Assembly (NCBI GenBank): GCA_900319865.1
Contig: ONQD01000007.1
Location: forward strand, 27,718 to 91,717
Length of the DNA stretch: 64,000 bases
Reading direction: 5' to 3'
From: an uncultured Bacteroidales bacterium
Lineage (GTDB): Bacteria; Bacteroidota; Bacteroidia; Bacteroidales; P3
The position numbers and the translations under genes were made by a program. The notes under the pieces are model-generated. The model made no database searches, was not told where the DNA came from, and saw only the letters and a program-made list of their open reading frames with translations. Of the stretch, positions 41,658 through 57,590 are shown one piece after another (within the stretch, counting starts at the first letter, position 1; every line of letters starts with the position of its first letter).

Positions 41658-41732
41658 GGTCTGTTAGCTCAGTTGGTTTAGAGCGCTTCCTTCACACGGA
41701 AGAGGTCGACAGTTCGAATCTGCCACAGACCA
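41658..41732 (+). tRNA. tRNA-Val (CAC), integration target of the mobile element
   Basis: Acceptor GGTCTGT/ACAGACC, discriminator A. Anticodon stem CTTCC/GGAAG around TTCACAC gives CAC. The T stem GACAG/CTGCC has one A-C mismatch (41709 with 41723). The last 14 nt (from 41719) belong to the 43-bp att core and are repeated at 47391-47404, so the gene is kept intact by the element. Confidence 0.93.
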
Positions 41733-41761
41733 CACAGAAGCCCCAATCAAGGGGCTTTTTT
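41719..41761 (+). repeat. attL (43-bp core)
   Basis: Begins TCTGCCACAGACCA (the tRNA-Val 3' end) and ends with the hairpin AAGCCCC/GGGGCTT plus T-tract. Exact copy at 47391-47433. The match stops at the next base on both sides. Confidence 0.93.
41738..41761 (+). terminator. Terminator of tRNA-Val(CAC), inside attL
   Basis: AAGCCCC-AATCAA-GGGGCTT followed by TTTT. Confidence 0.85.
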
Positions 41762-41937: not shown

Positions 41938-43110
41938 ATGCCGAGAAAAAAAGTTGCCAGCAAGGCGAAAGAAACGGTACGTTTGAGAGAAAAAAGACTG
42001 TCAAACGGGAATGTGTCGTTGTACCTGGACTATTACAAAGACGGGCAAAGGGAGTATGAATTTTTGAAACTCTATCTAATACCTGAAAAAACACCCTTTG
42101 ACAAGCTGCATAACTTGGAGGTGCTGAACGCTGCAAACGCTATCAAAGCAGAGCGTACACGGGCAATCATAGCCGAAGAGGCGGGATTAAAGCGTGTTTG
42201 GCAGTCGAAAATCTTGTTGTCGGATTGGATGATGCATTGTGCCGAACAGGCAGAGCAGAGAGCCAGCACAGCAGCCAACCGCCACACGTGGGGGCGAACG
42301 ATTGAGAACACTGCCGACCTGTTGAGGCAATACGCTGGTGAGCGTGTGAGAGTGTCGGACGTGGACACCGAATTTTGCAAGGGCTTTATAGAGTATTTGC
42401 GTACGGGTTACGTTATCGGGCGTAATGTGCAGAACACGGGGCAGCATTTAGCAGCCAGCACGGCACAAAAGCGTTACCAATGTTTGAGGTTTGCCTTGTC
42501 CGAGGCTGTGAGGGAGGGCGTAATAAACAAAAACCCGTGTGATATGTTGGCAGATGCGGACAAAATCAAAGTACCCGAAAGCACACGGGCGTATCTTACT
42601 ATTGATGAATTGAAGTTGTTAGAGAACACCCCGACAGCCAGCGAGGAAACAAGACGGGCGTACCTCTTTATGTGTTATTGCGGTTTGCGTATATCGGACG
42701 TTAAGGCGTTGCGGTGGGCTGACATAAACCAGCAGGGCGAACAATGGACTATCACCATACGACAGCAGAAAACGCAAACACCCCTCTATTTGCCCCTATC
42801 AAGCAAGGCACGGGAGTTTCTACCGCAGCAGGGAGAAAACCCCGTCAGCGGGCTTGTATTTGCCGACATACCGACAGAACCAGCAATGAACCGCACGTTG
42901 AAAGCGTGGGCAGAACGGGCAGGAATAAGCAAGAATTTGACACTACACACAGCCCGCCACACATACGCCACAACCCTATTGACAAAAGGGGCAGACCTCT
43001 ACACCGTTAGTAAGCTGTTGGGACATTCCGAGGTTGCCACCACACAGATTTATGCAAAGATAGTGGATAAAAAGAAAGTGGATGCAGTGAACCTGTTGAA
43101 TGAGCTTTGA
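41938..43110 (+). CDS. int: Tyrosine recombinase / integrase
   Basis: 390 aa. N-terminal arm-type DNA-binding region (LREKRLSNGNVSLYLDYY), a SAM-like core-binding domain (~85-200), and the catalytic domain with Arg251 (CGLRISD), H337-R340-H341 (HTARHTYAT), the LLGHSEVATTQIY box and nucleophile Tyr372. All catalytic residues are present, so it should be active. It lies 205 nt inside attL and reads inward; its target is the tRNA-Val(CAC) 3' end. Confidence 0.95.
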   Translation: MPRKKVASKAKETVRLREKRLSNGNVSLYLDYYKDGQREYEFLKLYLIPEKTPFDKLHNLEVLNAANAIKAERTRAIIAEEAGLKRVWQSKILLSDWMMHCAEQAEQRASTAANRHTWGRTIENTADLLRQYAGERVRVSDVDTEFCKGFIEYLRTGYVIGRNVQNTGQHLAASTAQKRYQCLRFALSEAVREGVINKNPCDMLADADKIKVPESTRAYLTIDELKLLENTPTASEETRRAYLFMCYCGLRISDVKALRWADINQQGEQWTITIRQQKTQTPLYLPLSSKAREFLPQQGENPVSGLVFADIPTEPAMNRTLKAWAERAGISKNLTLHTARHTYATTLLTKGADLYTVSKLLGHSEVATTQIYAKIVDKKKVDAVNLLNEL

Positions 43111-44188: not shown

Positions 44189-44515
44189 ATGTCAGCAGAA
44201 AAGACTATCGAGCAAAGATTAGGACGGATTGAGCAATTAATTATATTATCCATGTTTGCGGCAAAAGAAGCCCTAACAATGGATGAGGCGGCAGCGTATA
44301 CGGGTCTGTCAAAATCATACCTTTACAGGCTGGTATGCAAAAAGCGAATACCCTACTATAAGAGTGCCGGAGGTAAACAGAACTATTTCGCAAAATCGGA
44401 ATTAACGGGATGGCTGTTAAAACACCGAGTTTCAACGGTGGAAGAAGCACAGGAGAGGGCAGCAGCCTATTGTGTCAGCAACCCCAAGAACGGACGGAAA
44501 GGGGGTGCAAGATGA
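44189..44515 (+). CDS. Excisionase-like helix-turn-helix protein
   Basis: 108 aa with a MerR/excisionase-type HTH (LTMDEAAAYTGLSKSYLYRL, KRIPYYKSAGGKQNYFAKSE, ELTGWLLKHR). This is the usual small DNA-binding protein of Bacteroidota integrative elements, which directs excision or regulates rep. First gene of the second operon. Its stop overlaps the next start (ATGA). Confidence 0.85.
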   Translation: MSAEKTIEQRLGRIEQLIILSMFAAKEALTMDEAAAYTGLSKSYLYRLVCKKRIPYYKSAGGKQNYFAKSELTGWLLKHRVSTVEEAQERAAAYCVSNPKNGRKGGAR

Positions 44516-44967
44516 ATTGCAGCAAAACACCGATAGCAAAGCCCAGCAACCCCGCAGCATACGCACAGAGGGCAGTATATAGGCTTATGAGAAACGGGGA
44601 TTGGTACACGTCAAGGCAGATTGCGGTGAGGGCAGCAGTAACAGACCCTAACGCAACAATACGCACTATGAAAAAGAACGGTTACACGTTTGATGAGAAA
44701 GTTGAGTACAACAGCCACAAGAAAAGCTATAAGTTGTGGCGGTTGATAATGCCCGACCAGCAGCCAAAGAACGAGGGACAAGAGGAAAGCACGGCAGAAC
44801 CGCAGCCACCAGCAGCAGGGAAAGAGTGTATACAAAAAATGTATACGCAGCGTATACAAAAAATGTATACACCAACGGAGGTTACTGACACTTTCCCTAA
44901 ATATAATGAACGTACGCACACAGGCGCACCCAATAATAACAGAGGGGAGGTTGATAATGATGTTTGA
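44512..44967 (+). CDS. Unknown element protein with possible winged-helix N-terminus (151 aa)
   Basis: The N-terminal 75 residues resemble a winged helix (YRLMRNGDWYTSRQIAVRAA, TIRTMKKNGYTFDEKVEYNS, KKSYKLWRLI). The C-terminal half is Gln/Pro/Glu-rich and disordered. That tail contains a doubled peptide, IQKMYT, because the DNA encodes two tandem 19-bp palindromes (44828-44870). It overlaps the rep start by 11 nt. A role in replication control is an inference from the palindromes and position. Confidence 0.65.
   Translation: MNCSKTPIAKPSNPAAYAQRAVYRLMRNGDWYTSRQIAVRAAVTDPNATIRTMKKNGYTFDEKVEYNSHKKSYKLWRLIMPDQQPKNEGQEESTAEPQPPAAGKECIQKMYTQRIQKMYTPTEVTDTFPKYNERTHTGAPNNNRGEVDNDV
44828..44870. repeat. 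Tandem 19-bp palindromes upstream of rep
   Basis: GTATACAAAAAATGTATAC occurs twice (44828-44846, 44852-44870) separated by GCAGC. Each is an inverted repeat GTATACA/TGTATAC with a five-A centre. Lies ~90 nt before the rep start, inside the preceding coding region. Confidence 0.85.
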
Positions 44968-45874
44968 CACCCTCAATATTGAAGTTTCAAAACATGTGTG
45001 TGGTGAGCCTTTGGGCGTGTCGCGCTACATTGACGTTGAGAAGTCGGGACGTTATGAGAGGAACGGTGGGGCGTATATTGTGGGGAGGTTGGATAATTAC
45101 AGAGTGTACGCAGAAGAAAATCGAGTAACGCTGTCGGGGAGTGTGGCGAAGTTGGTACAGGGCGAGAACGTGAGCAGCCCCAGCCGTGAACAAGTGCAGG
45201 AGGGCGTGTTGAGGTTGTCGGATGCGCTGCATATAAACGTGGGTGCAGGGAGAGTAATAAGAGTGGACGTTGCCAGCACATTGAACGTAGAGAATGAGCC
45301 AGCCGGGTATTTAGGGCAGCTGGAGAGCCTTAGAAATGCGACACGGGCAGAGGTTGGGACATGGTCGGTGTACTTTGCCGAAAAAGAAAGAGGCAGAACG
45401 TTGTGTTTCTATGACAAGAGGGCAGAGGTGACGGCACGAAACGGAACGATACCGCGTGAGTGGGCGTGTTTCCCCAATCTGTTGCGGTATGAGATGCGTT
45501 GCCGTGGGGACATTCGGGGATGTGTCGGGACGTGTCGCGTTGATGAACTGACACAATTGCAGCCGTGGAGAAAACTTGTGTGTTTGTGGGCCGAAGAATA
45601 CGGGAGTATCGTAAAACCGACTGAGGAGAGGATAAGAACAGCCAGCACCCCAAGGGCAGCGATATTGGCGATATTTGCCGACCTGTTGCGGTATGCACCA
45701 GAGGGATATATTAACGAAGTGTGCCAGCTGGTGAAAGCGGGCGGTAAAATGTCGAGGTTTGAGCGTTACCGGTTGCGTAAAGAGTTGCGTAAAATCGTGG
45801 ACGGTTGCGGTGAGCTGTTAGTTGATGAACTAACACAAAAGATTGAGCAAGTAAGATCGTTGCAATGTGCTTGA
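44957..45874 (+). CDS. rep: Phage/plasmid replication initiator, gpII/X family
   Basis: 305 aa from MMFDTLNIEV. The pattern matches the filamentous-phage-type gene II/X replication proteins: VTLSGSVAKLVQGENV, LRLSDALHINVGAGRVIRVD, RTLCFYDKRAEV, LLRYEMRCRGDIR and YGSIVKP. Such proteins nick one strand at a double-strand origin and start rolling-circle replication. It suggests that the excised circle replicates. The start overlaps the previous gene; tandem palindromes lie just upstream. Confidence 0.8.
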   Translation: MMFDTLNIEVSKHVCGEPLGVSRYIDVEKSGRYERNGGAYIVGRLDNYRVYAEENRVTLSGSVAKLVQGENVSSPSREQVQEGVLRLSDALHINVGAGRVIRVDVASTLNVENEPAGYLGQLESLRNATRAEVGTWSVYFAEKERGRTLCFYDKRAEVTARNGTIPREWACFPNLLRYEMRCRGDIRGCVGTCRVDELTQLQPWRKLVCLWAEEYGSIVKPTEERIRTASTPRAAILAIFADLLRYAPEGYINEVCQLVKAGGKMSRFERYRLRKELRKIVDGCGELLVDELTQKIEQVRSLQCA

Positions 45875-47390: not shown

Positions 47391-47433
47391 TCTGCCACAG
47401 ACCACACAGAAGCCCCAATCAAGGGGCTTTTTT
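47391..47433 (+). repeat. attR (43-bp core)
   Basis: Exact copy of 41719-41761, including 14 nt of tRNA-Val 3' end and the terminator hairpin. No tRNA body precedes it. Confidence 0.93.
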
Positions 47434-49512: not shown

Positions 49513-49544
49513 GACATTAAAGTTTCACGGATAACTTTTTGTAT

Positions 49545-51497
49545 ATGGATAATTTGAATCTGTTTCATGAATTAGAAGCCATTCTCAGAATGAACTCGAG
49601 GTATTGTATGGAAGACGGTACCCTCATAAAAAACAAAATAGTAGAAGATGCTTTAAGCCTAGAACCGGAATTGCTTAAATATATTCTATCGCATGAAGGT
49701 CTGAAAAAGAATTTTTTCTGCGAGGTGAATGGGGTGATGGTGTTTGACAAAGTGAAGTTCCAGCATTTTGTGATGAACAAATCTTTCCTTCCAGATAGTT
49801 ATACGTCATACAAGAATAAAATAGGTCTGACAACGGATGATGGTAGTTTCATTAGCGAAAGTCGCCATGTGGTTCTCGCATGGCCTTATAAGGACTGTAT
49901 ACTCGAAGGCGGACAAACAAAAGAGGAAGCAAAACGGGACGAAATATTTTGGAGCGAGACTTTGGCCCCGGACGAAATCAATAGACTGACAGAACCCAAA
50001 GCGTTTGCGGGATTCAAACGTTATGATAAAGATGGAGAACATGATGTTGAGCACCTGCTTCCTACTGACAACCTAATCATAAAAGGGAACAATTTGTTGG
50101 CTCTATATTCGCTGCGAAAGATGTATACAAATAAGATAAAACTGATTTATATCGACCCACCATATAATACAGGTAACGATGGTTTCGGATATAACGATAA
50201 TTTTAATCACTCATCTTGGTTGTCATTTATGCGCACCAGGCTTATGGTAGCCAGAGATTTGTTGAGTAGCGATGGTCTTATTTTTATTTCAATTGATACT
50301 AGTAGGAATAATGCAAATGGTGTGGTCGGAAGCCCAGAAATGCCATATTTACACATCATATTAGACGAAATATTTGGTCGTAAAAATTTTATTGGACATT
50401 TGCACTGGAAGAAAAAGAAACAACCTTCATTTCTTTCAAAAATTGCTGGTGTAATGGAATCAGTCTTAATCTATGCAAAAGATGAAAGTAACATTGGAAA
50501 ACTGCAGATGGGGCAAACAACGGATACCACAAAACGAATAGATAATGCAGATAATCCGTATTCTGAAAGAACAATTACAAAAGGTATCCGGTTTATGGGA
50601 GAGCCAAATTTTGTCATAAAGAAAGGAAAGTATCAGAACAAAACGATGACTACGGAGTTTCTACAGGATGTGGTAGTGAAAGATGGAAGAACCCAAAATG
50701 ATTTTAAAGCCATAGCTCGATATAGAACTAGCCAGTCTGAGATTAATAAATTTTGCTTACAAGATTTAATGTATATAACTGCAAATTGTTCATTTCGAAG
50801 ATTTAAGACTGAGGATGAAATGGACGCTGGCAAGACTATAACAGATCTTCTTTTAGATTGGGGTCAGAATCAGGATGCTACAGAAGAACTAAGGAAATTA
50901 TTTGAAATTACCAATGACGAAAAGGCTTTTGATAATCCAAAACCAGAACTATTGATGTCTAATATTATTTTAGTAGCAACAGAAAAAGGAGACATCGTAC
51001 TGGACTATCATCTAGGTAGTGGAACGACTGCTGCTGTTGCACATAAGTTAGAACGTCAGTACATAGGAGTTGAGCAGATGGATTATATAAATACACTTGA
51101 TATACCTCGGTTACAGAAGGTTATTGAAGGAGAACAGGGAGGAATTTCAAAGTCTGCCAATTGGCAGGGAGGTGGTTCTTTTGTTTACTGCGAATTAGCC
51201 AAAGCCAACCAGCAATTCGTAGATGAGATAAATAAAGCAAAAAGTCATAAGGCTTTGGTTGCAATCTGGCAAAAAATGCAATCAACAGGATATCTTAACT
51301 ACAAGATAAATGTATCAACTTTTGAAGAAAATGCTAAGGATTTTGAGTCATTAAGCTTTGATAATCAAAAGCGTTTTTTAATAGAATGTCTCGACAAAAA
51401 TATGCTGTATATCCCTGTCAGTGATATGGAGAGTGAAGAGTATGCTGTTAGTGAGGAGGACAAACGTCTGACAAAGGAGTTTTATAAAAAGAATTAG
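49545..51497 (+). CDS. Type III-like R-M system, adenine-specific DNA methyltransferase (Mod)
   Basis: 650 aa from ATG 49545. Catalytic motif IV DPPYNTGNDGF (~204) comes before the SAM-binding motif I, DYHLGSGTTAAVAHKL (~486), with the target-recognition region between: the beta-class order of type III Mod and related enzymes. It methylates adenine at the cognate site and in type III systems also gives the Res complex its specificity. An N-terminal ~130-residue helical part precedes the core. AT-rich codons unlike the neighbours suggest transfer. The Res-like gene follows after 5 nt. Confidence 0.9.
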   Translation: MDNLNLFHELEAILRMNSRYCMEDGTLIKNKIVEDALSLEPELLKYILSHEGLKKNFFCEVNGVMVFDKVKFQHFVMNKSFLPDSYTSYKNKIGLTTDDGSFISESRHVVLAWPYKDCILEGGQTKEEAKRDEIFWSETLAPDEINRLTEPKAFAGFKRYDKDGEHDVEHLLPTDNLIIKGNNLLALYSLRKMYTNKIKLIYIDPPYNTGNDGFGYNDNFNHSSWLSFMRTRLMVARDLLSSDGLIFISIDTSRNNANGVVGSPEMPYLHIILDEIFGRKNFIGHLHWKKKKQPSFLSKIAGVMESVLIYAKDESNIGKLQMGQTTDTTKRIDNADNPYSERTITKGIRFMGEPNFVIKKGKYQNKTMTTEFLQDVVVKDGRTQNDFKAIARYRTSQSEINKFCLQDLMYITANCSFRRFKTEDEMDAGKTITDLLLDWGQNQDATEELRKLFEITNDEKAFDNPKPELLMSNIILVATEKGDIVLDYHLGSGTTAAVAHKLERQYIGVEQMDYINTLDIPRLQKVIEGEQGGISKSANWQGGGSFVYCELAKANQQFVDEINKAKSHKALVAIWQKMQSTGYLNYKINVSTFEENAKDFESLSFDNQKRFLIECLDKNMLYIPVSDMESEEYAVSEEDKRLTKEFYKKN

Positions 51498-51502
51498 ACA
51501 CC

Positions 51503-54500
51503 ATGGCCAATCTTCAGGAGAAACTCGAAAGCGAATTTGGACGGCGCTATATCTCGCAACTTGAATTGCCTGATTATTTTGATACCTGCTTAAGCCCTTC
51601 ACGAAAATTGCGTCCATATCAGGAAGAGTGTTTCCGCTACTTCTTGACATACATGAATCCAGAGAATGACTTCGATGGCAAGTTAGAACGTCCCCATCTT
51701 CTGTTCCATATGGCAACAGGATCAGGCAAAACCTTAATTATGGCTGGAGCCATACTATATCTATATGAACAAGGGTATAGGAATTTCCTATTCTTTGTTG
51801 ATAGTACCAATATCGTAGAGAAGACCAAAGACAACTTTCTAAACGCATCATCTTCAAAATACTTATTTGCACCACAGATAAATATCAATAGTAAGCGAGT
51901 TGACGTTCAAAAGGTAGACAACTTCCAAGGAACATCAACAGATTGTATTAATCTTTGTCTGTGTACCATTCAAGGCTTGCACTCGGATTTGAATTCAGAG
52001 AAGGAAAATGCTGTTACCTATGGTGACTTTGTTGACCAACCTGTGGTGCTTATTTCTGATGAGGCTCATCACATGAATGCTGCAACACGAAGAAGGGAGA
52101 CATCATCAGACGATGACCAACACACTAAAGACTGGGAGTCGACTGTAATGCGTATCTTCAATAAAGACAATGGTAATTTACCCAATGTATTACTTGAATT
52201 TACTGCTACAGCCGACCTTGCTGACCCTGCAATTGCTCAGAAGTATGAAAATAAAGTTATTTTCGATTATCCGCTGAAGAAATTCCGAGAGGACTTATAT
52301 TCTAAGGATGTTGAAGTGTTGGAAAGCGACTTGGAACCTCTTGACATGGCCTTGCAGGCAATGATACTTAGTCAGTATAAACGTAAGCTCTTTGCAGAAA
52401 TCAAGCAGAACATTAAGCCAGTAGTGTTGTTTAAGTCGAAGACAATTCTTGCTAATAATAAAATCTTTACAGATTTTATTTCGGTACTTACTATACTGGA
52501 TGAGTCTGGTATAGATAACATACGTAAACGTGCAAAGGATGACCTGCTTGCTGCATTCTGCTATTTTGATGAACATGGAATTACCACAAGCAATCTTATT
52601 CTTGAACTGCGTGAGGACTTTGCAGAAGAACGTCTTTTGTTAGTGGACGGTAATAACATCTCGCCAGAGAAGCAGAAGTTGTTGAATTCACTTGAGGAAA
52701 CCGGCAATGACATTCGTGCTATTTTTGCTGTAGACATGCTTAACGAGGGTTGGGATGTGCTTAATCTCTATGACATCGTACGCTTGTATAATACTCGTGA
52801 TGCTGCCAATAACAGAGTCGGCAAGACTACAATACAGGAGGCGCAGCTTATTGGTCGAGGTGCCAGGTATATGCCTTTCAAAGACCCTGCAAATCCGACA
52901 TTGGAACCAGATAGACGAAAATATGATGGTGATGCAGGAAATCCCCTGAGGGTAATAGAAAAGCTGCATTACCATAGTGCATACAATCCTCGCTATATAC
53001 AGGAACTAAAGACCGCTCTTAGGGAAAACGGCATAATTCCTGACTCAAGAATACAACTAGACTTGTTCTTGAAACCAAATTTTAAAGATAGCCGTTTATA
53101 CAAAAAAGGCGTTGTGCTGCTGAATAAACGTATTTCACAAGCTGAAGCAGAAGATGATGGTACTATAGGAAAGGATATTATTAACAAGACATTCAATGTC
53201 TCGCTACATACAGGACAAATGCGTACGAACCAAGTCTTTACTGACAGTGGGGCTGAAGGGGCAATAACGAGTAAAGTCCTGTCTATACGGTTTAAGGAAA
53301 TAGAATCATATGTTATAAGGGCAGCATTGAATAGTTTTGTTTCATTCAATTACGATGCATTGAAAAAGCTCTACCCACATCTGAAATCGATAAGAGAGTT
53401 TGTGAAAAGTGATGATTATTTGGCAAACCTTAATATTAAGGTGATTGGAACAAAGACATCCATTTCTGATTATTCTCAAATTGATAAGCTACAAATTGCC
53501 AAATCTGTTTTGATGGAATTAGAACCAATACTGATAAATAGAGGTAAAACATATAGAGGTACTAAGGTGTTCACTCCATATCAGTTCAAAGACAAGTTCC
53601 GAGATACCATCAAGTTGAATGTTACTATCACCCCAAATGGCAACAAGGAGTTTGGAATATCTATGAGAACTCCAAGAAATTCTAAATATGCACTTGACCT
53701 CATGAATGTGAATTGGTATGCATATAACGATAATTACGGTACTTCTGAGGAGAAAGCACTCGTGAAGTATATTGAAGGAATAATGCCAAAACTAGAAGAA
53801 AAGTATGATGAGATATATCTAGTTCGAAATGAGAAAGACATCTGTATCTATGATTTTGACGATGGACGTAAGTTTGAACCAGACTTCATTCTTTTCTTGC
53901 GAATAAAAGGAGGGGGAGACAGATACGACAACTTGCAACTCTTTATCGAACCCAAGGGTGATGGGCTGCTCAAACAAGACAAGTGGAAAAATGATCTATT
54001 GAAGAAAATCAAAGCGATGGCTGAAGTCACATGGTGTTCTCAAACCGAAAAGTTTCATGTTTGGGGAATACCGTTCTTCAACGAGTCTTCGAATAGGGAG
54101 TTTGATACTGTGATGAAGGATGATGTGTTGGGGTTTGTTTCTAATCAGTCTACATATAACATATTGTCTTTATCGGAGATAAAGGAAGAGGATAAATTTA
54201 AGCTTTATTTGCCTTTATATAGTTTGCGAGCTGCATGTGGATATTTTGGAGATGGCGAAATGGTTGAACCTATTGGATGGATTCGAGTGGAGGAGCATGG
54301 CCGATTGAATGAGGATATGTTTGTGGCTCAAGCTAAAGGTAACTCTATGGAACCCCAAATTAGTGATGGAGATTACTGTGTTTTTACAAAGTATCAAGGT
54401 GGTTCAAGAGAAGGAGATATCGTTTTGTGCCAACATCGCAGTTTTTTTGATGTGGATAACGGAGGCTCGTATTCCATAAAAAAATATTTTCGTGACAAAC

Positions 54501-54685
54501 ATGTAGATGAGAATGGCCTCCAAATAGGCACAAAAGTAACGCTATCACCTTTAAACAAAGATTATAATCCAATAGTCATAGATGCAGACAATGGTAACGT
54601 AGATGATTTTAAGATAGTGGCCATTTTTAAAAGTGTAGTATGGTCACATGCAAATGCAAAAGAGAAGACCGACAATAAAGAATGA
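51503..54685 (+). CDS. Type III-like restriction subunit (helicase + PD-(D/E)XK) fused to an S24/LexA-like peptidase domain
   Basis: 1060 aa. SF2 helicase motifs: ATGSGKT (71-77), DEAH (186-189), FTATA (233-237), QLIGRGAR (448-455). A PD-(D/E)XK nuclease follows: EPDFILF (Asp794) and FIEPKGD (Glu816, Lys818). The C-terminal ~170 residues are an S24 peptidase domain: a LexA-like cleavage region LYSLRAACGYFGDG (around 907-917), catalytic Ser948 in AKGNSMEPQISDGDY and a Lys at 993/994 (SYSIKKYFR). Known Res subunits end after the nuclease; the S24 part suggests control by autoproteolysis, as in LexA, but this is inference. Cleavage there would separate the last ~150 residues. Confidence 0.88.
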   Translation: MANLQEKLESEFGRRYISQLELPDYFDTCLSPSRKLRPYQEECFRYFLTYMNPENDFDGKLERPHLLFHMATGSGKTLIMAGAILYLYEQGYRNFLFFVDSTNIVEKTKDNFLNASSSKYLFAPQININSKRVDVQKVDNFQGTSTDCINLCLCTIQGLHSDLNSEKENAVTYGDFVDQPVVLISDEAHHMNAATRRRETSSDDDQHTKDWESTVMRIFNKDNGNLPNVLLEFTATADLADPAIAQKYENKVIFDYPLKKFREDLYSKDVEVLESDLEPLDMALQAMILSQYKRKLFAEIKQNIKPVVLFKSKTILANNKIFTDFISVLTILDESGIDNIRKRAKDDLLAAFCYFDEHGITTSNLILELREDFAEERLLLVDGNNISPEKQKLLNSLEETGNDIRAIFAVDMLNEGWDVLNLYDIVRLYNTRDAANNRVGKTTIQEAQLIGRGARYMPFKDPANPTLEPDRRKYDGDAGNPLRVIEKLHYHSAYNPRYIQELKTALRENGIIPDSRIQLDLFLKPNFKDSRLYKKGVVLLNKRISQAEAEDDGTIGKDIINKTFNVSLHTGQMRTNQVFTDSGAEGAITSKVLSIRFKEIESYVIRAALNSFVSFNYDALKKLYPHLKSIREFVKSDDYLANLNIKVIGTKTSISDYSQIDKLQIAKSVLMELEPILINRGKTYRGTKVFTPYQFKDKFRDTIKLNVTITPNGNKEFGISMRTPRNSKYALDLMNVNWYAYNDNYGTSEEKALVKYIEGIMPKLEEKYDEIYLVRNEKDICIYDFDDGRKFEPDFILFLRIKGGGDRYDNLQLFIEPKGDGLLKQDKWKNDLLKKIKAMAEVTWCSQTEKFHVWGIPFFNESSNREFDTVMKDDVLGFVSNQSTYNILSLSEIKEEDKFKLYLPLYSLRAACGYFGDGEMVEPIGWIRVEEHGRLNEDMFVAQAKGNSMEPQISDGDYCVFTKYQGGSREGDIVLCQHRSFFDVDNGGSYSIKKYFRDKHVDENGLQIGTKVTLSPLNKDYNPIVIDADNGNVDDFKIVAIFKSVVWSHANAKEKTDNKE

Positions 54686-55054: not shown

Positions 55055-56338
55055 ATGGATAATATTGACGACTATAGAGATAGGGTTGCAGACCAATTGT
55101 TGCAAGATCAATTGGAGGCTGCAGGAGTGGTGTTGGTGCAGGGTGCAAAGTGGTGCGGAAAGACGACAACGGCAGTCCATGCAGCAAAGAGTGTGCTCTA
55201 TATGGATGACCCTCGTCAGTTGCAAAACAACTTGCGACTTGCCGAGACCAATCCTTCGGTATTGTTAGAAGGTCCGGCACCAAGGGTGATAGATGAGTGG
55301 CAGTTGGCTCCTCAGTTGTGGGACGCGGCACGCTTTGAAGTGAGTCGGCGTGGGGCGTTGGGTATGCTTATTTTCACGGGTTCGGCTGTGCCTCCCGACA
55401 TGAGTAAGATAACGCATACCGGAACAGGGCGTTTTGCATGGCTCACCATGCGTCCGATGAGTTTGTGGGAGTCGGGCGAATCGAATGGGATGTTGTCGCT
55501 TGAGTCGTTGTTTGAGGGGGTGGCACAGGATGTTGCGGCAGCCGAGATGGATGTGGAGCGTATGGCATATCTTGTATGCCGAGGAGGATGGCCACAAACT
55601 TTGAAAATGAAAGACAGGGCCTCGTTGTTGCAGGCACGGAACTATGTGGATGCTGTATGCAATAGCGATATTACCCGTGTCGACGGAGTGGGGCGCAATC
55701 CTGCGCTGGCACACCTTTTGATGCGTTCATACTCACGTCATCAGGGTGGGCAGGTGCCCGTGAGCACGATAGTGGCCGACCTTAAGGAGAATTATAACAC
55801 AGAGGTTTCGGAGGCGACGGTGGCATCTTATATCAATGCGTTGAAAAAGATATTTGTGGTGGAAGATATGCCTGCATGGAGCCCCAACCTGCGGTCTAAG
55901 ACGGCTATAAGGACTAGCGACACACGATATTTTGTAGACTCGTCGATTGCGGCAGCATCGTTGGGCATCGGTCCCAAAGACCTGTTGGCAGACTTCAACA
56001 CATACGGGTTGCTTTTTGAGACCTTGGCGGTTAGGGACTTGCGAGTCTATGCCGAGGCGTTGGATGGGCATGTGAGCCATTATCGTGACCGTAACGGTTT
56101 GGAATGCGATGCTGTGGTGCATCTGCGCAATGGCAAATATGGGCTTGTAGAGGTGAAAATTGGAGGAGACACGCTGATAGAGGAAGGTGTAAAGAACCTG
56201 AAGAACCTGTCGCAGAAGATTGACACCGACCGGATGAACGAGCCGTCGTTTATGATTGTTCTTACTGCCATTGGCGACTATGCGTTCCGCCGCAGTGATG
56301 GTGTGTGGATTGTTCCCATTGCTGCATTGAAGCATTGA
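55055..56338 (+). CDS. AAA-family ATP-binding protein with DUF4143
   Basis: 427 aa. Walker A GAKWCGKTT (30-38), Walker B-like RVIDEWQLAP (~76), a LIFTGSAVP sensor segment, and the C-terminal DUF4143 with its nuclease-like end (LLFETLAVRDLRVYAEAL, YRDRNGLECDAVVHLRNGKY, LVEVKIGG). The D...EVK pattern is PD-(D/E)XK-like. These proteins are widespread and often stand alone; function not established. In a defence-rich region it could be accessory to restriction (inference). A tandem repeat precedes its promoter. Confidence 0.88.
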   Translation: MDNIDDYRDRVADQLLQDQLEAAGVVLVQGAKWCGKTTTAVHAAKSVLYMDDPRQLQNNLRLAETNPSVLLEGPAPRVIDEWQLAPQLWDAARFEVSRRGALGMLIFTGSAVPPDMSKITHTGTGRFAWLTMRPMSLWESGESNGMLSLESLFEGVAQDVAAAEMDVERMAYLVCRGGWPQTLKMKDRASLLQARNYVDAVCNSDITRVDGVGRNPALAHLLMRSYSRHQGGQVPVSTIVADLKENYNTEVSEATVASYINALKKIFVVEDMPAWSPNLRSKTAIRTSDTRYFVDSSIAAASLGIGPKDLLADFNTYGLLFETLAVRDLRVYAEALDGHVSHYRDRNGLECDAVVHLRNGKYGLVEVKIGGDTLIEEGVKNLKNLSQKIDTDRMNEPSFMIVLTAIGDYAFRRSDGVWIVPIAALKH

Positions 56339-56411: not shown

Positions 56412-57590
56412 ATGGAAACCAAGGATAACAGCTTTGTATCAGACTTAAAGACCATTGTCGGGTCGGCAAGAGAATACAGTTACCGTGCGGCCAACACAAT
56501 GCAGGTGGTCAGCAACTGGCTTATTGGATGGCGCATCGTGGAACAGGAGCAGCACGGTAAACAACGTGCCGAATATGGCAAGCAAATTATCAAGCAGGCA
56601 TCAGAGGCTTTGACTGCCGAGTATGGGAAAGGGTACTCTGTGGCATCGTTGAAAAGCTATCGCAAGTTTTATATAGAATTCAGCGACCTGCAAATTCAGC
56701 GAGCAATGCCTGTCGAATTTCAAGGTACGATTCTTCGCTTGGAGAAAAATATCCTCCTGGCAAGAAATGAAACGTCCGAAAAAGGGCAGGCATTGTCTGC
56801 CTTTTTGGGAAAGAACGATGAATTGCAAAAAGGGCAGGCATTGTCTGCCCTATTGACGTGGTCTCATTATGAACGTCTTATGCGTGTTGCGGACAAGGAT
56901 GCCCGTATGTGGTATATGCAGGAGGCTGCGTCGCAACAATGGGACTACCGCACCCTGAAGCGCAATATCGACACTCAATATTACTACCGGCTGATGCAGA
57001 CACCAACAGCCCACAAGCCAGAGGTGGAGCAAGAAATGGTAGAAAAAACAGCAGTCTACCAGCAAGAGAAATCGGCATTTGTCAAGAATCCGATGCTTAT
57101 TGAGTTTCTAGGACTGAACCAAGATGCCGCTTTCACCGAAAGCAAATTGGAGGAGACAATCATAAACCATTTGCAGAAATTCCTTATCGAGATGGGCAAG
57201 GGTTATGCTTTTGTGGCTCGTCAACAACACATACACACACAAGACGATGACTACTACATCGACTTGGTATTTTACAACTATCTGCTGAAATGTTTTGTGC
57301 TGATTGACTTAAAGACAACGAAGATAAGCTATCAAGACGTGGGGCAGATGGAAATGTATCTTAAACTGTACGACACCTACAAACGACCCGAAGGCGACAA
57401 TCCTTCTATTGGAATTATACTTTGTTCCGAGACCAACGCAGATGTGGCGCGGTTCTCTACACTGGCGAGCAATCCACAGATGTATGCCGCCAAATACTTG
57501 ACCTATATGCCCACACAGGAGGAGCTGCGCCGCGAGATAGAGATGCAAAAAGAGCTTTTTGAACAAAAGATGCAAGAGGAAGGGGAATGA
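56412..57590 (+). CDS. YhcG-type PD-(D/E)XK nuclease (DUF1016 family)
   Basis: 392 aa. N-terminal YhcG helical domain (TMQVVSNWLIGWRIVEQEQH, YGKGYSVASLKSYRKFYIEF) and a C-terminal PDDEXK nuclease domain (DDDYYIDLVFYN, CFVLIDLKTTKI, VGQMEMYLKLYD). YhcG genes often sit inside type I R-M operons. In the middle, a 16-residue unit beginning KGQALSA is repeated in frame (see findings). The stop overlaps by 4 nt (ATGA) with the start of an hsdS-like remnant. Confidence 0.88.
   Translation: METKDNSFVSDLKTIVGSAREYSYRAANTMQVVSNWLIGWRIVEQEQHGKQRAEYGKQIIKQASEALTAEYGKGYSVASLKSYRKFYIEFSDLQIQRAMPVEFQGTILRLEKNILLARNETSEKGQALSAFLGKNDELQKGQALSALLTWSHYERLMRVADKDARMWYMQEAASQQWDYRTLKRNIDTQYYYRLMQTPTAHKPEVEQEMVEKTAVYQQEKSAFVKNPMLIEFLGLNQDAAFTESKLEETIINHLQKFLIEMGKGYAFVARQQHIHTQDDDYYIDLVFYNYLLKCFVLIDLKTTKISYQDVGQMEMYLKLYDTYKRPEGDNPSIGIILCSETNADVARFSTLASNPQMYAAKYLTYMPTQEELRREIEMQKELFEQKMQEEGE

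Follow-up and report, generated by a model that had tools for sequence, protein, structure and literature searches.

A type III restriction subunit fused to an S24 peptidase domain in a Bacteroidales bacterium, and its possible role as a self-cleaving switch

The mod-res locus and the Res-S24 protein

The stretch of DNA analysed here (the window) comprises 64,000 nucleotides from an uncultured Bacteroidales bacterium (GCA_900319865.1, contig ONQD01000007.1) and carries a type III restriction-modification locus in which the restriction gene, res, runs on in frame into an S24 peptidase domain of the LexA/UmuD kind. The modification gene, mod, lies directly upstream of res on the same (+) strand with a gap of 5 bases; its open reading frame (ORF) is listed with a TTG start and has an in-frame ATG at 49545. 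The features of the locus and of the fusion protein are as follows.

49539..51497, + strand: mod, type III DNA methyltransferase subunit (Pfam N6_N4_Mtase 2.4e-42, TypeIII_RM_meth 1.2e-21; PADLOC MTase_III 3e-181)
51503..54685, + strand: res-S24 fusion, 1060 amino acids (aa), open frame (PADLOC REase_III 1.6e-125 over residues 19-875)
51605..52213, + strand: ResIII motor domain match, residues 35-237, containing ATGSGKT and DEAH (Pfam PF04851, 4.6e-28)
53882..53956, + strand: PD-(D/E)XK residues Asp794, Glu816 and Lys818, the nuclease label being a reading of the motif
54143..54157, + strand: linker, residues 881-885 (pLDDT <50 in the full-length model)
54236..54241, + strand: predicted scissile bond Cys912-Gly913 (A-[A/C]-G kept in 30/30 fused modules)
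54305..54616, + strand: Peptidase_S24 match, residues 935-1038 (Pfam PF00717, 4.7e-8)
54344..54346, + strand: predicted nucleophile Ser948, in GNSMEP (946-951), by motif position
54479..54481, + strand: predicted general base Lys993, the invariant lysine in module alignments

The res frame is uninterrupted and encodes a type III Res part (residues 19-875), a short low-confidence linker and a complete S24 domain, the frame extending 185 residues beyond residue 875, where Pfam places Peptidase_S24 (33.2 bits for a cut-off of 23.3). A first-pass annotation, made from the sequence alone, had read this frame as a restriction subunit fused to an S24 domain, and the motifs that it named are all at the residues given: ATGSGKT at 71-77, DEAH at 186-189, QLIGRGAR at 448-455, the PD-(D/E)XK residues, AACG at 910-913 and Ser948. 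Of the two lysines that it offered, "Lys993/994", the catalytic one is Lys993. Asp794, Glu816 and Lys818 are each at least 90% conserved across 39 Res rows. The SF2 motor motifs, the PD-(D/E)XK residues and the adjacent type III mod gene identify the protein as a type III Res, and the Pfam match over the cut-off, the S24 fold described below, the Ser-Lys dyad and the Ala/Cys-Gly bond place its C-terminal part in the S24 family. Cys912 stands 36 residues before Ser948, a distance also found in the three rows compared (one LexA, two UmuD), and a cut at the predicted bond would give products of 912 residues (105.2 kDa) and 148 residues (16.7 kDa).

Predicted fold of the S24 domain

An AlphaFold2 model of residues 866-1060, made with nine relatives, has a mean pLDDT of 74.4 and a pTM of 0.73. 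All 26 structures in the PDB that match this model at E <= 0.001 are LexA, lambda CI or UmuD entries, among them RecA-bound LexA and UmuD, the best being T. maritima LexA (3k2z, E 1.9e-5), which bears out the LexA-like fold expected earlier. The whole protein gave zero matches to PDB sequences by phmmer at E <= 1; a profile of 19 modules gave three at E <= 0.01, with LexA and UmuD from RecA-bound structures among them. The relative placement of the Res and S24 parts is not readable in the full-length model (pLDDT 80.9, pTM 0.58).

Intact modules of the S24 family answer to RecA filaments, and the well-studied members are inactive until then. The proposal of the first-pass annotation, that self-cleavage triggered by RecA could switch restriction, is thus a natural inference from the family and is plausible; the fold, together with the sequence kinship to the LexA and UmuD of RecA-bound structures, favours such a self-cleaving switch. 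For its further suggestion, that nicks made by restriction itself could be the trigger, we found no specific support.

Type III relatives with and without the S24 domain

Genome contigs were scanned for relatives of Res and the best 80 of 125 were taken (loci are cited by L numbers). Nine of these 80 (L003-L008, L011, L030 and L036) carry the S24 domain, so that the fusion in one frame is found again at nine loci of other genomes. The domain is absent from 67 of the 80, which stop near residue 875, no more than 37 residues after the last aligned position, and the Res body as such therefore does not need it. Four loci were counted as neither fused nor unfused: L009, whose S24 domain is cut off by the end of the contig; L010, which has another tail; and L042 and L047, in which frame or contig stops short of the C-terminus. 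A Mod match is present in the loci of 76 of the 80 relatives and in eight of the nine S24-bearing loci, the ninth (L036) starting inside res.

The Res of L010 is 77% identical to that of the window in the best segment, and the position of the S24 domain is occupied there by a tail (L010:8680-9198) that is unrelated to S24 and has no Pfam match. Searching with this tail yielded two weak matches of 24% within long ORFs (L133 and L134), in 2 of 247 genomes.

The S24 module on other nuclease-motors

Whole-genome searches for the module covered Bacteroidota alone. Using the S24 domain of the window, we obtained matches in 12 of 296 genomes (its own included), each lying within an open frame (724-1217 aa); in two of them (L086 and L090) the match crosses one TAA. 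A profile search within the same order gave 13 matches in 12 of 344 genomes: nine were strong, that of the window among them, and came from frames of 660-1161 aa, one was a fragment (L115/L128) and three were weak and in stand-alone proteins of 219-273 aa (L116-L118). The fragment and the stand-alone proteins were left out of the fusion counts.

The type of engine was assigned by Pfam for the window, L095, L096, L099, L100, L102, L103, L105, L120, L121 and L126, and by length and a reading of resemblance for L097, L098, L101, L104, L122-L125, L127 and a Halomonas copy. Nine of the ten other carriers scanned with Pfam passed the S24 cut-off and L121 fell just short (23.2 vs 23.3). Besides type III Res, the carriers are of four kinds. 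The first is a type I enzyme:

L096:4036-7584, - strand: type I HsdR with an S24 tail (PADLOC REase_I 1.1e-37; NCBIfam hsdR 1.1e-58, under that model's cut-off)

Its neighbours, read by eye, resemble hsdM, hsdS and ATPase genes. The second kind comprises PLD-helicase-DUF3427 enzymes, that is, SauUSI-like type IV (L102, L103, L105 and L121 by Pfam, L104 by resemblance), and the two of these that were scanned with PADLOC both match its type IV methyl-directed enzyme. Helicases of Schlafen group 3 make up the other two kinds, one with a GIY-YIG domain (L095, L099, L100 and L120 by Pfam; L097, L098, L101 and L122 by resemblance) and one with another N-terminus (L126 by Pfam; L123-L125 and L127 by resemblance), which looks PD-(D/E)XK-like by eye in L123-L127. 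Two Schlafen-type carriers scanned with PADLOC gave weak matches to AbiO and Nhi, in the helicase part. One genome (G326) has two different S24 fusions, a PLD-helicase-DUF3427 enzyme at L121:1835-5317 (- strand) and what its length and resemblance suggest is a GIY-YIG-Schlafen helicase, at L122:3118-5307 (- strand).

The homologue search thus recovered the fusion not only in nine of the 80 type III relatives but also on type I, type IV and Schlafen-type engines. Chance, a frameshift or a chimeric assembly as its source is ruled out by the same architecture in nine other type III loci from other genomes and on these other engines. The viral contigs scanned with the window's domain contained zero relatives, a scan of phages gave one weak match, to a CI-like repressor, and a scan of plasmids gave one fusion-like match, in Halomonas, with the helicase part upstream in another frame, and two additional repressors with a second query; a viral source of the module has no support in these scans. 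The Halomonas copy is the only module seen outside Bacteroidota, the whole-genome searches having covered that phylum alone.

That the carriers are ATP-driven nuclease-motors of unrelated kinds favours a self-cleaving switch, and the plausibility of a RecA-triggered one gains from this recurrence. The same fact can be turned another way: all identified carriers being motors, a conformational trigger in cis is conceivable, and the module might cut itself independently of RecA on folding, on Mod binding or on stalling of the motor, as a maturation step or in response to another signal. The well-studied S24 members, however, are held inactive until RecA filaments act. Moreover, no partner or signal domain is visible beside the module, and we consider cleavage of this sort quite unlikely, even though the LexA-like protein IrvR is presented as an exception to the RecA rule in the abstract of PMC7101444.

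Conservation of the cleavage site and the dyad

We tabulated 30 fused modules (10 type III, 8 GIY-YIG-Schlafen, 5 type IV, 5 other Schlafen, 1 HsdR and 1 Halomonas), taking the GxSM motif to include GKSM and GHSM and reading the motifs of L124-L127 from translations. In all 30, the Ser of GxSM is preceded at 35-44 residues by A-[A/C]-G and followed at 45-48 residues by a lysine. Loss of the dyad, which would have spoken against the earlier proposal, is therefore not seen in any of them, and a decayed, non-catalytic S24 domain is ruled out by this conservation of site and dyad. The modules are otherwise divergent: 20 other aligned modules have 26-42% identity to that of the window, and the closest found (L125) has 49%. 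That site and dyad are kept in spite of this divergence again favours a self-cleaving switch.

It also bears on the idea that the S24 domain has a structural role only, as a tail for dimerisation or partner binding whose cleavage would be without consequence. S24 C-terminal domains dimerise in LexA, as stated in part of PMC10584840, and the near relative L010 has an unrelated tail in the same place, both of which agree with such a role; it does not explain why Ser, Lys and A-[A/C]-G are kept in 30/30 modules, and we regard it as very unlikely.

Phylogeny of Res bodies and of modules

A quick tree built from 39 Res bodies puts all ten rows with S24 in one starred set of 12, together with L010 and the unfused L012; the S24 label requires three changes on this tree, at least two of them by starred branches. 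A starred set of four unites the window with L010, L003 and L005. In the module tree, one branch (99/98) splits the 30 fused modules from three outgroup rows, and the window's module groups with those of Schlafen, HsdR and type IV carriers (100/99 and 100/98 in two trees), apart from L003, L005 and L008. A constraint holding the modules of the window, L003 and L005 together was rejected (p-AU 0.0012), this group being one that the Res-body tree suggests but that was chosen after the module tree had been seen. The C-terminal slot of Res therefore looks exchangeable, because the module of the window is not sister to those of L003 and L005 and because L010 has a different tail. In another module tree, starred branches force at least two changes among the type III modules. 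A constraint holding all ten type III modules together was not rejected (p-AU 0.099, in a tree without the long-branched L129), and a single origin for all of them is accordingly not excluded.

It may be that one S24 subfamily forms a portable, RecA-responsive self-cleavage switch that was taken up and exchanged by type I HsdR, type III Res, SauUSI-like type IV enzymes and GIY-YIG or other Schlafen-group-3 helicases, so that a class of anti-phage nucleases would be tied to the SOS state directly, without transcription; we put this generalisation forward tentatively and place it below an even chance.

A possible switch and its direction

The domain, its site, dyad and fold, their conservation and the kinship to modules on other nuclease-motors are features of the sequences and models themselves; from them we infer cleavage, a RecA trigger and an outcome. 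The reading that we favour, although we hold it as somewhat short of an even chance, is that the fusion is a type III motor-nuclease with a self-cleaving S24 switch triggered by RecA filaments, restriction more probably being turned off than on. DNA damage would give rise to RecA filaments on single-stranded DNA, and these, as happens with LexA and UmuD, would induce the S24 domain to cleave itself at Cys912-Gly913, so that Res (912 residues) and the domain (148 residues) come apart. Restriction would then be off during repair of the chromosome (restriction alleviation), either because Res would form a productive complex only with the domain attached or because the exposed carboxyl end (...AAC here) would target the motor to an ATP-dependent protease, much as ClpXP takes over LexA once it has been cleaved. 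That the genome encodes RecA favours a switch answering to it.

The direction of the switch is not given by the sequence. The off direction is favoured because a chromosome under repair has unmodified sites, the situation in which ClpXP shuts down type I enzymes through HsdR, as passages of PMC11109961 and PMC12707154 describe. It is favoured too because cleaved LexA goes to ClpXP, its cleavage uncovering ClpX signals according to part of PMC10584840, and because 15 of the 30 fused modules would expose a LexA-like ...AA end, the predicted new ends in other modules being ...VAA, ...IAA or ...AAA.

Several observations weigh against this reading. The spacing of Ser and Lys is 45 residues in the window's module vs 37-39 in the LexA and UmuD rows. 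A Cys is at the scissile position in 10/10 type III modules, so that the new end in the window would be ...AAC and not ...AA. The cut alone should not break Res, because residues 1-912 constitute a full Res like that of the domain-less relatives; the off direction therefore requires that a tethered function be lost or the fragment destroyed, as the on direction requires an inhibitory tail. The 67 of 80 type III relatives that end without the domain disfavour a general role for it in type III Res. Lastly, plasmid-induced alleviation of type I restriction in E. coli persists in a lexA1 mutant (a passage of PMC11109961), so that it does without SOS induction.

The completeness of fragment 1-912 as a Res of the unfused kind also speaks for an on-switch, in which the S24 domain would hold Res inactive or in the wrong oligomer until a RecA-stimulated cut frees the active enzyme, as UmuD is converted to UmuD'; the nuclease would then be armed by DNA damage or by intermediates of phage replication. 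In UmuD, self-cleavage brings activation. The Cys-Gly bond is moreover of the UmuD type (part of PMC8565304), but the type of bond does not point to activation, since a stand-alone LexA-like protein from the same order (L130:2924-3553, - strand) also has Cys-Gly instead of Ala-Gly; a UmuD-like protein is encoded nearby (L130:4248-4703, + strand). Docking of the S24 domain on the active site of Res shows no sign readable in the full-length model at its pTM of 0.58, and altogether we find an on-switch unlikely. For the off direction that we prefer, the Cys of the stand-alone LexA-like protein suggests that local degradation rules may differ.

Genomic surroundings

In the mod-res stretch (49-55 kb) G+C is 35-41%, and in the flanking 1-kb blocks (36-49 kb and 55-64 kb) it goes from 38% to 60%. 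To the left, a 43-bp direct repeat (41719-41761 and 47391-47433) corresponding to the 3' end of tRNA-Val (cac) and its terminator brackets a 5.7-kb stretch, an integrated mobile element with both attachment sites at a tRNA-Val gene. The mod and res genes are outside this element, about 2 kb past its right end. The genes of the element and those just downstream of res, in that order, are:

41938-43110: tyrosine integrase gene, inside the element
44189-44515: HTH_17 gene, inside the element
44906-45874: G2P-like replication gene, inside the element
55055-56338: AAA_14/DUF4143 ATPase gene (Pfam), just downstream of res
56412-57590: YhcG-like PD-(D/E)XK (DUF1016) nuclease gene (Pfam), after the ATPase gene

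The last two match the PADLOC candidate-system models PDC-S01 and PDC-S02. In the window's own genome, whose assembly is rated 92% complete, a search for S24 found besides the fusion only a UmuD-like protein (L001, contig C55), and no LexA-type S24 gene with a DNA-binding head was seen.

Comparison with known systems and significance

The protein resembles type III Res in its motor and PD-(D/E)XK residues, its adjacent mod and its PADLOC REase_III match over 19-875, and differs by the C-terminal S24 domain that most relatives lack. Type III restriction is marked by ATP-dependent cleavage that requires a pair of unmodified sites in inverse orientation. With LexA, UmuD and phage CI it shares the fold, a scissile A/C-G bond 36 residues before the Ser, and the Ser-Lys dyad; here, by contrast, a nuclease-motor takes the place of the DNA-binding head or short free arm to which the S24 domain is otherwise joined. 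A LexA-type N-terminal helix-turn-helix was not found, Pfam showing only ResIII, DEAD and S24 in the protein, and unlike UmuD, a short protein whose N-terminal arm is free, the window's protein has 912 residues ahead of the site. The SauUSI-like type IV, type I HsdR and Schlafen-group-3 carriers have a kin S24 module at the C-terminus on unrelated engines. Automated domain databases may list such architectures. Among the openly licensed papers listed in our searches, we found no description of such an S24-restriction or S24-Schlafen fusion. For SauUSI, the relevant passages of PMC3874153 name PLD, NTPase and DUF3427 as the only parts, and the term "S24" was not found in the available portions of the main texts of PMC12707154, PMC3874153, PMC5512222, PMC7159879 and PMC12839542.

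The nearest functional parallel would be the ClpXP-dependent alleviation of EcoKI, as described in the passages cited above: both would be proteolytic control of a restriction motor linked to DNA damage, but ClpXP acts on HsdR, with no SOS induction needed in the lexA1 test, while here the protease domain is within the enzyme. Restraint of restriction during repair of the host chromosome has been described, in those same passages, for type I enzymes, by ClpXP acting on HsdR. If the reading proposed here is true, a built-in protease would link type I, type III, type IV and Schlafen-type nucleases directly to RecA filaments, the module could serve for making nucleases responsive to DNA damage, and the SOS response and anti-phage defence would be joined at the level of the protein.

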